In this document: positions 43,991 through 49,612 of the stretch, piece by piece
How the letters are laid out: each line of letters starts with the position of its first letter
How positions within the stretch are numbered: the stretch's first letter is position 1
Assembly: GCF_000348805.1 (NCBI RefSeq)
Contig: NC_020510.1
Location: 558,001-622,000 of the forward strand
From: Blattabacterium cuenoti BPAA
GTDB lineage: Bacteria > Bacteroidota > Bacteroidia > Flavobacteriales > Blattabacteriaceae
Length of the DNA: 64,000 nt
Reading direction: 5' to 3'
The notes under the pieces: model-generated
Databases searched by the model: none
What the model was told of the DNA's origin: nothing
Seen by the model: the letters and a program-made list of their open reading frames with translations, nothing else
Position numbers and translations under genes: made by a program

Positions 43991-45145
43991 ATGTATTTTT
44001 CTGTTTTGAGTTACTTTCTATTAAGAAAATTACATACTTTATATAAAATTATAAATATTAATAATTTATCGAATTCAATTAGTTTTGAAATTTCGAAAAA
44101 AAATCAATTAAAAATTATATGGGGATTAGATTCAAAAAATCTAATTTATACATATATAAAAATCAATGTTCAGAAATATACCAAAGAAAAAGTAACTCTC
44201 TCTATCAAATTTATGATCAATGTTTTAAGCACATTTTCAAATGAAGAACTTTCCTTAAAAAAGGAAAAAAATACACTTAATATTTATTCTAAACAGGGAG
44301 TTTATAAAATTCCTACTTATTATGATTATTCAAATCATAATAAAAATATTCTTACACTATGTAAGTCTTCTTTTGTTCGTAGAATATCTTTGTTTTCCAA
44401 ACTATTTTTAAGAATTTTAAACAAAACTTTATTTTTTACTACTAGAGATAAGGAATTGAATCCTATATTAAATGGAGTATTTTTTCAATTTTTTACCCAT
44501 GAAGCAAATTTTGTGGCTACGGATACTTATAAACTGATCAAATATACCATAAAGAATTTTAAAACAGATCAAAGGATCCAATTTACTATATCTAGAAAAT
44601 ATCTTAATATAGTTAGGGAAATTTTAAAAAATGAAAAAAGAAATAATATTATTATTGAATATTATGAAAAAAAAAATATAATTTTTTATTTTAGAGATCA
44701 TATTTTTTCATGTCAACTAATGAATGAAAACTATCCAGATTATCGTTCTGTAATTCCTCATAATAATAACCAATGTCATATCTCTTTGATTATTAATAAA
44801 TTTTTATTGTTAAATACGATTAAAAGAGTTTCTATTTTTTCTAAAAATAGAAATAATTTTATTGATTTTCATTTTAATCATAATAAATTAAAAATTTATG
44901 ATCAAAATACGATAGATGATCATAATTCTACTTCAGAAATACAGTGTCAAGTTTTTTCTAAAAATCTAAAAAATATGAAAATAGGTTTTAATTCTAAATT
45001 TTTAATTGAAATTTTATCTTCTTTAAATGAAGATTTTGTTTATTTTGAATTATATCATAATAAAATGGGGGTTTTAAGGCCTTTATATAAGAAAAAAAAA
45101 GAAGAATCTATTTTGATATTGATTATGTCTATAATAAAAGTATGA
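43991..45145 (+). CDS. dnaN: DNA polymerase III beta subunit (sliding clamp), divergent
   Basis: Clamp that tethers the replicative polymerase. The 384-residue protein has normal clamp length. Recognisable motifs are 'MYFSVLSYFLLRKLHTLYKI' at the start, 'LNPILNGVFFQFF', 'ANFVATDTYKLIKYT' (the family's FVATDxHKL block), 'QLMNENYPDYRSVIP' and a C-terminal hydrophobic end 'ESILILIMSIIKV'. In most clamps the final motif is (I/V)MP(M/V), which forms the peptide-binding pocket; here Pro is replaced by Ser. The protein is strongly shifted toward K, I, N and F. It follows tRNA-Met by 50 bases and overlaps pheT by four bases. Confidence 0.85.
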   Translation: MYFSVLSYFLLRKLHTLYKIININNLSNSISFEISKKNQLKIIWGLDSKNLIYTYIKINVQKYTKEKVTLSIKFMINVLSTFSNEELSLKKEKNTLNIYSKQGVYKIPTYYDYSNHNKNILTLCKSSFVRRISLFSKLFLRILNKTLFFTTRDKELNPILNGVFFQFFTHEANFVATDTYKLIKYTIKNFKTDQRIQFTISRKYLNIVREILKNEKRNNIIIEYYEKKNIIFYFRDHIFSCQLMNENYPDYRSVIPHNNNQCHISLIINKFLLLNTIKRVSIFSKNRNNFIDFHFNHNKLKIYDQNTIDDHNSTSEIQCQVFSKNLKNMKIGFNSKFLIEILSSLNEDFVYFELYHNKMGVLRPLYKKKKEESILILIMSIIKV

Positions 45146-47211
45146 AAATATCATTGAATTGGATTAAAAAATATGTATTTCCTCTTAATATGGACGATAA
45201 AAAAATCTCCAATATATTAACTGATATTGGATTCACAGTAAAAGGGTTTGTTCATAATGAAAACCAAGATTTTGTTTTAGATGTGGAAATAACACCTAAT
45301 CGTACATATGCTATGAGTCATTACGGAATCGCACGTGATTTGTATGCCGTATTAAAATTTCGTGGATATAAAGTTCATTTGGTGAAACCAGTAGTAGTAA
45401 TAAATGAAGGGGATCATTGCAATAATGAATCTCATCTTTCAATTCTTGTAAAAATACATGATACATGTATAAGGTATTCCGGAATATGTATTTCGAAAAT
45501 AAAAATAGAACCATCTCCATATTGGTTAATTTCTAGATTAAAATCTATAGGCGTAAAATCTATAAATAATATAATAGATATAATCCATTTTGTTATGTAT
45601 GAATTAGGACAACCCATCCATATTTTTGACATGGATCAAATAGAGGATAAAAAAATTATAATAAAAAATGCGGAAAAAAATACAAAATTTCAATCTTCAG
45701 ATAAAATTACAAGAAAACTTGATGAAGAAGATTTAGTTATTTATGACTCTGTTAAACCATTATCTATCGCTGGTATGATCAATCATATTACATCAAATAT
45801 ACATGTTAAAACCAAAAATATATTTATTGGAAGTGCCTGTTTTAATTCCATCATGATCCGGAATCTTAGAAAAAAACATTCTCTAAAAATAGAAACACAA
45901 CATTTTTTTGAAAGAGAGACAGATCCCAATCAGACTGTTTATGCTTTACAAAGAACCGTTTTTCTTATCAAGAACATCATAAAAAATAAGATAATGTGTT
46001 CTGACATCATAGATTGTTATCCTAATCCTATATCTATTTCAAAAATCAAACTTCGTTATAAAAAAATTATCAATATTATAGGAAAAAAAATATCGAAAAA
46101 AAAAATTAAAGAAATTTTATCATTGTTGGAAATGATGATTTATTCTGAAAATGATCAATATTTATTGATTCGTATTCCTTCCTACAGAACAGATGTTCAA
46201 AGAGAAATAGATGTAATTGAAGAAATATTCCGAATTTATGGAATTCATAAGATTCCAACATATAATCAAATAAAAATTTCTACATTTCCTAAATTTTTTT
46301 TGAAAACAGAACATGAAATTCAAAAAATACTTTTTGAACAATTAATTTGTTTTGGTTTTCAAGAAATTATTTCTTCTACTATGAGAAAAAATGAAGAAAA
46401 ATATTCTTCTTTACTAAATTCTTTTTTGAAAATACAAGAAATTAAGATTCTTAATCCTGTGAATCACAATTATCAATTGATGCGTTCTAGTCTGTTATTC
46501 AGCATGATAGATTGCATTGAATATAATCTTAAAAACAATAGAATAAAATCCGATATAAAATTTTTTGAATTAGGAAACATATATTATAAAATAAACAATA
46601 AATTTTTAGAAAAAACCTATCTCGGAATAGCAATTTATCAAAAAGAAAAAATAGAATCTAAAAATTATCCTTTTTTTTATTTAAAAGGAGTTATTGAACA
46701 AATTTTTCAAAAAAGTGGGATATTGAATTATACTCAAATACTTTCCAAACATCCATTATTAGAAAATGGAATTTCCATATTATACAATCATAAAAAATTA
46801 GTTGAACTAGGAAAGTTTAAAAATCATATTTTAAAAAAAAATGAAATATTTTATGCAGAAATTGATTGGAAATATTTAGTATCTATTATTCAGGAAAAAA
46901 AAATAATTTATATTCCATTTTCAAGATATCCTACTTCAAGGAGAGATTTATCTTTATTAGTAGACAAAACTATTTCATTCGAAAAAATCAATCAATTAAT
47001 CAAGAAAAAAGAAAATCATCTTATTAAAAAAATTAAAATATATGATTTATATGAGGGTAAAAATTTACCTATATCAAAAAAATCTTACACAGTAAGTTTC
47101 TTTTTTGAAAGTCAAAAAGAAACACTGACTGATAAAATTATTAATAATTCAATGAAAAAAATTGAACTTTTTTTAAAAAAAGAATTAAAAGCTAAGATAA
47201 GAGAAAAATAA
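45142..47211 (+). CDS. pheT: Phenylalanyl-tRNA synthetase beta subunit lacking the tRNA-binding OB domain
   Basis: Beta chain of the tetrameric PheRS. At 689 residues it is about 110-120 shorter than normal (about 800-810). The loss is at one place: after 'LTDIGFTVKGFVHNENQ' the sequence passes directly to 'DFVLDVEITPNRTYAMSHYG', skipping the OB-fold tRNA-binding domain that normally occupies about residues 40-150. The other domains are kept: the editing region B3/B4 ('IRYSGICISKIKIE', 'NNIIDIIHFVMYELGQPIH'), B5, the catalytic-like core, and the C-terminal anticodon-binding FDX-ACB domain ('SRYPTSRRDLSLLVD'). The gene overlaps dnaN by four bases. pheS is not in the window. Confidence 0.92.
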   Translation: MKISLNWIKKYVFPLNMDDKKISNILTDIGFTVKGFVHNENQDFVLDVEITPNRTYAMSHYGIARDLYAVLKFRGYKVHLVKPVVVINEGDHCNNESHLSILVKIHDTCIRYSGICISKIKIEPSPYWLISRLKSIGVKSINNIIDIIHFVMYELGQPIHIFDMDQIEDKKIIIKNAEKNTKFQSSDKITRKLDEEDLVIYDSVKPLSIAGMINHITSNIHVKTKNIFIGSACFNSIMIRNLRKKHSLKIETQHFFERETDPNQTVYALQRTVFLIKNIIKNKIMCSDIIDCYPNPISISKIKLRYKKIINIIGKKISKKKIKEILSLLEMMIYSENDQYLLIRIPSYRTDVQREIDVIEEIFRIYGIHKIPTYNQIKISTFPKFFLKTEHEIQKILFEQLICFGFQEIISSTMRKNEEKYSSLLNSFLKIQEIKILNPVNHNYQLMRSSLLFSMIDCIEYNLKNNRIKSDIKFFELGNIYYKINNKFLEKTYLGIAIYQKEKIESKNYPFFYLKGVIEQIFQKSGILNYTQILSKHPLLENGISILYNHKKLVELGKFKNHILKKNEIFYAEIDWKYLVSIIQEKKIIYIPFSRYPTSRRDLSLLVDKTISFEKINQLIKKKENHLIKKIKIYDLYEGKNLPISKKSYTVSFFFESQKETLTDKIINNSMKKIELFLKKELKAKIREK

Positions 47212-47213
47212 AA

Positions 47214-48656
47214 TTATATAAAATAAGACAATTTTTTTAAAATTTTCTCGAATCCAGTTTCTTCTTTGATAATTTTTGATATTTCTTTTATATGAATTCT
47301 TTTTTGTTCCATGCTATCTCTGTTTCTCATGGTTACTGTATTTGTTTTGATCGTATCGTAATCTACAGTAAAACAAAATGGAGTTCCTATAGCATCTTGT
47401 CTTCTATATAATTTTCCAATGGATTCTTTTTCATCGTAAACTAATCTATGACGAATTTTCATATCATGAAATATTCTTCTCGCGATTTCTTGTAATCCAT
47501 CTTTTCTAACCAATGGAAATATGGCGGCTTTAATTGGGGATAAAAAATAGGGAAGTTTTAATACTATACGTATTTTTCCATTTTTTAATTTTTCCTTTTT
47601 TAAGGAAGAAGAAAATATAGCTAAAAAAAGACGATCTAATCCTAAAGATGTTTCTATAACATAAGGAATATAATTTTTTTTCCATTCAAAAATTCGAATT
47701 TTTTTTTTCGAAAAAAATTCATGATTCTTTAAATCAAAATCTCTACGAGAATGAATTCCTTCTATTTCTTGAAATCCAAAAGGAAAATGAAATTTTATAT
47801 CTGATCCCGCACTTGCATAATGAGATAAATGATCATGATCACATAACTGATAATATGTTTTATCTCCTAAATTTAATTCTAAATGCCATTTTAATCGGGT
47901 CTTTTTCCAATACTCATACCATTTTATTTCTTCTTCTGGAAGAATAAAAAATTGCATTTCCATTTGTTCAAATTCCCGCATTCTAAATAAAAATCTTCTT
48001 GCAATAATTTCATTTCTAAATGATTTTCCTATTTGAGCAATTCCAAATGGAATTTTCATTCTACTAGATTTTACAATATTATGAAAATTTGAAAATACAC
48101 CTTGAGCTGTTTCAGGACGAAGATATAAATCTTTTTCATTTCTAATTTTGAACATCATATTGAAATTTCGAATTTCTGTCCAATTTTTTGTTTTAAAAAC
48201 GGGATCACAAATGCACAATTCATCAATTAAAACTTTTATATCTCCTAAATCCTTTTTTTCTAAAGATTGAGATAAACGAGATAATATTTCTTCTTTTTTT
48301 TTAGGATCATTTAAAAAATTTTTTTTTACATATTCTTGAATTAAAATTTCAGGACGATATCTTTTTTTAGAATCTTTATGATCAATTAACAATTCATGAA
48401 ATTTATCAATATGACCGGATGCATGCCAAACATCAGAATGCATAAGAATAGAAGAATCCACTCCTACTATATTTTCATGAAGTCGAGTCATAGATTTCCA
48501 CCAAAATTCTTTAATGTTATTTTTTAACTCCACTCCATGTGGTCCATAATCATAAATTGCATTTAATCCCCCATAAATTTCGCTAGAAGGAAAAATAAAC
48601 CCATAAACTTTTGCGTGAGAAATTAAAAAATCAAAAAAATAACTACATTTTTTCAT
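47214..48656 (-). CDS. glyS: Glycyl-tRNA synthetase (dimeric type)
   Basis: Class II synthetase of the alpha2 type. From ATG 48656 it has 480 residues and opens 'MKKCSYFFDFLISHAKVYGF', then 'SEIYGGLNAIYDYGPHGVEL', the GlyRS signature. Motif 2 is 'IGKSFRNEIIARRFLFRMRE', and 'FMMMFKI'-like segments and 'SLGLDRLFLAIF' (motif 3) follow, then an anticodon-binding domain. Upstream in-frame starts exist inside trxB but would give a tail not found in the family. Start lies six bases after trxB. Symbol glyS versus glyQS is a matter of convention. Confidence 0.94.
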   Translation of the reverse strand: MKKCSYFFDFLISHAKVYGFIFPSSEIYGGLNAIYDYGPHGVELKNNIKEFWWKSMTRLHENIVGVDSSILMHSDVWHASGHIDKFHELLIDHKDSKKRYRPEILIQEYVKKNFLNDPKKKEEILSRLSQSLEKKDLGDIKVLIDELCICDPVFKTKNWTEIRNFNMMFKIRNEKDLYLRPETAQGVFSNFHNIVKSSRMKIPFGIAQIGKSFRNEIIARRFLFRMREFEQMEMQFFILPEEEIKWYEYWKKTRLKWHLELNLGDKTYYQLCDHDHLSHYASAGSDIKFHFPFGFQEIEGIHSRRDFDLKNHEFFSKKKIRIFEWKKNYIPYVIETSLGLDRLFLAIFSSSLKKEKLKNGKIRIVLKLPYFLSPIKAAIFPLVRKDGLQEIARRIFHDMKIRHRLVYDEKESIGKLYRRQDAIGTPFCFTVDYDTIKTNTVTMRNRDSMEQKRIHIKEISKIIKEETGFEKILKKLSYFI

Positions 48657-48661
48657 ATTAT

Positions 48662-49612
48662 TTATTCTACACATAGATATAAATACTTTTCCAAATCTAA
48701 TGCCGCCATACATCCAGTTCCAGCAGATGTAATAGCTTGACGATAATCAGAATCTTGCACATCTCCTGCAGCAAATACTCCAGGTTTACTGGTGATGGTT
48801 TTTCCTTTTTGTACAATAATATATCCTTTTTCATCCAAATCTAATTCATTTTTAAAAATCTCTGTATTAGGAACATGACCAATTGCAATAAATAACCCAC
48901 TAATTAAAACAATTCTATTAGTTTTAGTTTTATGATTAAAAATTTTAATACCTTCCAAAAAATTATCTCCAATAATTTCTGTTACATTAGAACAAAATAA
49001 TATATTGATATTATTATTTTTTGAAATACGATTTTGCAAAATTTTGGATGCTTTAAAATTATTTCTTCTAACTATCAAATATACTATTTTACAAATTTTT
49101 GATAAAAAAATTGCTTCTTCTAAAGCGGTATCTCCACCTCCTATTACTGCTACATTTTTTTCTTTATGAAAAAAACCATCGCAAGTAGCACAAAAAGAAA
49201 TTCCTAATCCTATAAATTGTTTTTCTTTATAAATTCCTAAAAACTTAGAACGAGAACCTGTAGCTACAATTAGTCCTCTACTTTCTATACATTTTTCTGT
49301 AGAAAAAAAAATACGATGAATTCCTCCTTTTTTATTGGATAAAATCACATGATTCACAGATTGATTAATTATTTTTGTATTAAACCGTTCTGCTTGCTTT
49401 TTACACCTTATCATCAGATCGTTTCCACTAACTCCATCTGGGAATCCCAGATAATTATCCACACTAGTTGTTGTGGTCAATTGTCCTCCTGGTTGAAATC
49501 CCGTAAAAAGAATAGGGGCCATATCAGCCCTGGCCGCATATATAGCCGCAGAATAACCAGCAGGTCCAGATCCAATAATTACACAATTATGTATTTTTTT
49601 TTTAAATAACAT
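48662..49612 (-). CDS. trxB: Thioredoxin reductase
   Basis: NADPH- and FAD-dependent reductase of thioredoxin. The 316-residue protein has the FAD motif 'CVIIGSGPAGYSAAIYAARA' (about 10-29), the redox pair in 'SFCATCDGFF' (Cys141 and Cys144), the NADPH motif 'VAVIGGGDTALEEAIFLSK' and the C-terminal 'GVFAAGDVQDSDYRQAITSA'. Complete. It is six bases upstream of glyS on the same strand. Confidence 0.96.
   Translation of the reverse strand: MLFKKKIHNCVIIGSGPAGYSAAIYAARADMAPILFTGFQPGGQLTTTTSVDNYLGFPDGVSGNDLMIRCKKQAERFNTKIINQSVNHVILSNKKGGIHRIFFSTEKCIESRGLIVATGSRSKFLGIYKEKQFIGLGISFCATCDGFFHKEKNVAVIGGGDTALEEAIFLSKICKIVYLIVRRNNFKASKILQNRISKNNNINILFCSNVTEIIGDNFLEGIKIFNHKTKTNRIVLISGLFIAIGHVPNTEIFKNELDLDEKGYIIVQKGKTITSKPGVFAAGDVQDSDYRQAITSAGTGCMAALDLEKYLYLCVE

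Follow-up and report, generated by a model that had tools for sequence, protein, structure and literature searches.

The Blattabacterium phenylalanine--tRNA ligase beta subunit lacks the B2 OB domain and has a degraded editing pocket

Is the pheT gene of Blattabacterium cuenoti BPAA really missing the tRNA-binding OB domain (B2), and what kind of phenylalanyl-tRNA synthetase (PheRS) would such a gene specify? The gene lies in the window analyzed here, a 64,000-nucleotide stretch of the genome (NC_020510.1, positions 558,001 to 622,000). The first-pass annotation proposed that a precise in-frame deletion had removed the EMAP-II-like B2 from an essential enzyme, and the loss was borne out. The pheT open reading frame (45142–47211, + strand; 689 residues) reads from GFVHNENQ directly into DFVLDVEITPNR. 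The protein matches the whole-protein profile TIGR00472 (pheT_bact, NCBIfam) with 475 bits against a curated cut-off of 402.65, and the alignment begins only at profile position 157 of 798. Pfam detected no tRNA_bind OB domain in the window PheT; this domain is typical of bacterial PheT but not universal. The B3_4, B5, CLM, and FDX-ACB domains all scored above their Pfam cut-offs. In order along the + strand, the chain consists of the amino-terminal half of B1 (residues 1–35, 45142–45246, placed by alignment, with strand 32–38 running into the junction), the junction of the B2 deletion (about residues 36–43, 45247–45270, the modeled turn of the B1 hairpin), the carboxy-terminal half of B1 (residues 43–85, 45268–45396, placed by alignment and AlphaFold2), the B3/4 editing domain (residues 109–279, 45466–45978; PF03483, 170 bits), B5 (residues 302–367, 46045–46242; PF03484), the catalytic-like module B6/B7 (CLM; residues 391–569, 46312–46848; PF17759), and the B8 FDX-ACB anticodon-binding domain (residues 594–687, 46921–47202; PF03147). 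The beta subunits of standard bacterial (alpha-beta)2 PheRS (Escherichia coli 3pco, Thermus 1pys/2iy5, and Pseudomonas 4p71) have the same domain order B1, B3/4, B5, B6/7, B8, and the best PDB sequence and fold matches of the window PheT are subunits of this kind. The window PheT differs from them in lacking B2 and in the replacement of the pocket residues Glu334 and Gly318/319. The partner PheS is complete, with its class II catalytic core and amino-terminal coiled-coil domain, and is the only true pheS match in the genome. The neighboring genes are no part of the finding. Upstream, a dnaN-like gene (43991–45145, + strand; TIGR00663, 125 bits, slightly below the cut-off of 137.65) overlaps pheT by 4 bases, and downstream lies a glycine--tRNA ligase gene (47214–48713, − strand; NF003211, 560 bits).

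The interval between the conserved residues G30 and N53 measures 24 residues in the window PheT versus 141–150 residues in 95 free-living Bacteroidota PheTs. About 120 residues are therefore missing relative to free-living relatives, slightly more than the 110 or so first estimated, and B1 runs continuously across the gap. A search for PF01588 found no match anywhere in the 632,490-bp genome (one contig), and the same search was positive in 14 of 14 control genomes. These data indicate that, at the sensitivity of this search, B2 has not been relocated to a separate OB gene. PheT was located in each of the 68 family genomes. B2 is absent from every one of the 49 same-genus genomes, whose open frames span 685–722 residues, and from eight genomes belonging to five further genera. 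The recurrence of the loss across the genus and in other genera excludes a misassembly. The only feature that would suggest an artefact, be it misassembly, frameshift, or pseudogene, is the unusual length of PheT. The gene is a single, stop-free copy, the same open-frame deletion recurs in proteins that share 47–90% identity with the window PheT among the other same-genus genomes, and the chance of an artefact is negligible. The deletion is not peculiar to the BPAA genome; it extends across the entire genus and through most of the family. Outside the family, PF01588 is present in 157 of 196 genomes of the order. A PheT search of twelve order genomes without PF01588 returned B2-less members of the same family and incomplete assemblies from outside it, where pheT was either absent or truncated at the end of a contig.

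An AlphaFold2 model of the window PheT was built on an alignment with 46 full-length relatives. B1 is modeled confidently, with a block pLDDT of 85–95 that drops to 67–81 around the junction (85–90 at residues 1–30 and 67 at residues 31–40). Strands 32–38 and 44–49 form the B1 hairpin, and the residues left at the junction close it. The placement of domains relative to one another is unreliable in the models (pTM 0.57, rmsd about 29 Å to solved PheT), and our conclusions are confined to structure within domains. B2 is an insert in the turn of the B1 hairpin, and the model explains how a clean in-frame excision can take out all of B2 with B1 still closed.

The first-pass annotation stated that the editing and FDX-ACB domains stay. 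This holds for FDX-ACB and for the B3/4 fold, but not for the editing pocket, where conserved residues including Glu334 and Gly318 are replaced. The pocket was mapped by alignment to the E. coli and Thermus PheTs. Ile148-His149 (45583–45588, + strand, as for all pocket positions) replaces the pair Thr249-Asn250 (Thermus numbering), Asn214-His215 (45781–45786) replaces Gly318-Gly319 (E. coli numbering), which are invariant in the 95 free-living PheTs, Gly230 (45829–45831) replaces Glu334, and Ile250-Glu251-Thr252 (45889–45897) is found at Thr354-Asp355-Ala356 (E. coli numbering). Two pocket residues are kept: His160 (45619–45621), which corresponds to His261 in Thermus and His265 in E. coli, and Gly211, the equivalent of Gly315. 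The Glu334 position is Gly in 35/35 Blattabacterium sequences compared to Glu in 95/95 free-living sequences; for Gly318, retention is 0/35 and 95/95, respectively. Glu334 and Gly315 recognize the Tyr hydroxyl in Thermus PheRS (PMC3275996). The G318W substitution in E. coli lowers editing more than 70-fold and leaves growth unaffected in ordinary conditions (PMC4066437). The ratio of divergence within Blattabacterium to that within free-living order mates is 1.00 for B3/4 (95% interval 0.86–1.14) and 0.54–0.67 for the other domains (permutation p = 1e-4). No domain other than B3/4 is as variable inside Blattabacterium as inside the free-living group, and the B3/4 ratio, the highest of all, marks the editing domain as the part of PheT under the most relaxed constraint. 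Decay is wider than editing, because many alignment columns that free-living bacteria conserve are also lost from CLM and FDX-ACB. Some weak editing may persist, given the retained His160 and Gly211.

We conclude, with a probability of about 75%, that this protein is the genuine and only PheRS beta subunit of Blattabacterium, that it is ancestrally B2-less, and that the enzyme, as predicted from its sequence, aminoacylates tRNA yet is dead in editing. Charging of tRNA-Phe most likely persists through the catalytic core and coiled coil of PheS together with B8. Proofreading has most likely been lost from a B3/4 pocket that is without Glu334, Gly318/319, and other residues. The maintenance of B1, PheS, and B8, and the higher conservation of B1 and B8 among Blattabacterium sequences than among free-living members of the order, would also suit a compensated enzyme whose tRNA affinity and editing stay normal through changes in B1, PheS, or tRNA-Phe or through a host-supplied OB protein. 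This is unlikely, because every Blattabacterium carries replacements at pocket residues that editing is known to require, the PF01588 search revealed no OB relative in the genome, and no sign of host import was found.

Other aminoacyl-tRNA synthetases of the same genome are altered in their editing regions. ThrRS (L200:1465–2739, about 193198–194409 on contig C1 of its own genome, − strand) is a 424-residue protein with only the catalytic and anticodon-binding domains, and the whole amino-terminal TGS and SAD editing region is gone. This truncation is present in 6/6 sampled Blattabacterium genomes, and ThrRS is intact in free-living controls from the order. The sole SAD editing domain in the genome sits in an 893-residue frame with AlaRS motifs. 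In LeuRS (L196:611–3385, about 521110–523884 on C1, + strand), the CP1 editing motifs read FTSHPEM and GHEEKS compared to FTTRPDT and AHDQRD in Thermus LeuRS, and LeuRS is predicted to be unable to edit. The TTRPET motif of ValRS and the HxxxH and CxxxH motifs of AlaRS are retained. A search for Tyr_Deacylase (PF02580) gave no match in the genome, so a DTD-type deacylase was not found; this family has matches in 8 of 14 control genomes. Partial loss of aminoacyl-tRNA quality control is known in Mycoplasma and other host-restricted bacteria (PMC10057733, PMC11020763), and the PheRS, ThrRS, and LeuRS of this genome show the same pattern. B2 loss looks like one more sign of symbionts abandoning accuracy checks in protein synthesis. 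Host-restricted life and small population size would relax selection on editing, and the parallel decay of ThrRS and LeuRS would fit such a relaxation. With editing unselected in a drift-prone lineage, a B2 deletion would cost little, which is the causal link we infer.

B2 was lost more than once. It is retained in two genera of the family, represented by G218 (1.3 Mb; PF01588 4e-15) and the Uzinura-size G231 (263,431 bp; PF01588 4e-10). A PheT tree calculated with the B2 columns left out places a B2-less Walczuchella-size genome (309,299 bp) in a well supported clade with these two B2-bearing genomes, and an RpoB tree gives the same well supported placement. Constraining the RpoB tree to hold all B2-less rows together was rejected with or without the Sulcia-like rows (AU p about 1e-170 and 1.5e-8). 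The two trees and the rejected constraint establish that B2 was lost independently at least twice in the family. Nine Sulcia-like genomes (L051–L059) carry a segment of 67–75 residues at the B2 position of PheT. Neither hhalign, hmmsearch, nor Pfam detected similarity between this segment and B2, and its status as a proven B2 remnant is unsupported; a decayed remnant and a new sequence both fit. For this reason the count is stated as at least two. Up to five losses would be needed if the segment derives from B2 by decay and if Sulcia truly sits inside the second clade, a number that we do not claim since the placement is on long branches. G218 (L048, about 1.3 Mb) keeps all nine compared editing-pocket residues along with B2, and it may represent an early stage of genome reduction.

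The state of B2 does not track the state of the pocket one-to-one in these sequences. The Walczuchella-size genome has lost B2, yet it retains most pocket residues, including Glu334, Gly318, Thr354, Ala356, and the pocket His. The Uzinura-size genome has retained B2, yet Gly318-Gly319 is deleted. These two genomes are incompatible with B2 and the pocket always being lost together. Their decoupling is what would be expected from general streamlining, in which the deletion bias of small genomes removes a dispensable B2 and the pocket decays separately with no tie to the loss of editing. B2 disappeared from one and the same hairpin on no fewer than two independent occasions, which suggests an easily deleted site, and MetRS likewise lacks its OB domain; both points agree with this explanation. 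A 2006 report by Roy and Ibba reportedly describes B2 of PheRS as dispensable and as a contributor to editing, and this contribution argues against a separate fate for the two features. The strongest relative relaxation in Blattabacterium PheT also falls precisely on the editing domain. General streamlining with no causal link must be taken seriously as an alternative, although we hold it to be somewhat improbable. We prefer the reading in which relaxed selection on editing comes into play, and since B2 is reported to aid editing, we propose that it became deletable once that selection was relaxed. A broader reading is a family series in which B2 was lost repeatedly at the same hairpin (at least twice, perhaps five times) and the pocket decayed at lineage-specific times, leading from a PheRS that is complete and competent in editing to one that is B2-less and editing-dead, with measurable Tyr at Phe codons in Blattabacterium proteins. 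We consider the odds on this full series to be even.

Parts of this picture are already known. Many CPR bacteria have a PheRS beta without B2 (PMC5370408); they differ from Blattabacterium in phylum and lifestyle and are likened to it here on the absence of B2 alone. Editing-defective PheRS is found in Mycoplasma mobile and other host-restricted bacteria, with biochemical proof for Mycoplasma only (PMC4066437, PMC10057733). In those bacteria, which have reduced genomes, editing has disappeared or is predicted to have done so, as is predicted for Blattabacterium, but in Blattabacterium the pocket loss is accompanied by the complete loss of the OB domain. Mitochondrial PheRS is a far smaller monomer that consists of the catalytic module and B8 (PMC3275996). 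It has no B2, does not edit, and still charges tRNA-Phe; Blattabacterium shares the first property and probably the other two. The mitochondrial enzyme is also without B1 and B3–B7, whereas Blattabacterium keeps a two-subunit enzyme with the B3/4 fold. In Mycoplasma pneumoniae, PheT is split, with B2 kept and the chain cut after the B1-B2-B1 part (PMC12494982). The B1/B2 part likewise tolerates restructuring in that reduced genome, but the Blattabacterium chain is continuous and B2 is absent. The suggestion that the deletion tells us about the minimum PheRS loses force in view of the earlier description of B2 as dispensable, the B2-less CPR enzymes, and the much smaller mitochondrial enzyme. 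Our literature search found no paper joining phenylalanyl-tRNA synthetase with Blattabacterium. B2-less PheT in CPR bacteria and editing-dead PheRS in Mycoplasma are thus known, and the family-wide map of repeated loss plus pocket decay is new. The related genomes cover four states, namely both features intact, B2 present with an incomplete pocket, B2 absent with most of the pocket preserved, and loss of both, and they constitute a natural test of the role of the OB domain in bacterial PheRS. Loss of editing, if real, predicts mistranslation in the cockroach symbionts, with Tyr inserted at Phe codons and with errors at Leu and Thr codons through LeuRS and ThrRS.

The MetRS of this genome (L036:1018–2754, − strand) is without its carboxy-terminal tRNA_bind OB domain. 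Since MetRS and PheT both lack the domain, PF01588 is wholly absent from the genome. The MetRS loss does not appear to be a special symbiont feature, because several free-living members of the order have a single PF01588 match, which lies in a frame of about 800 residues, the size of PheT.
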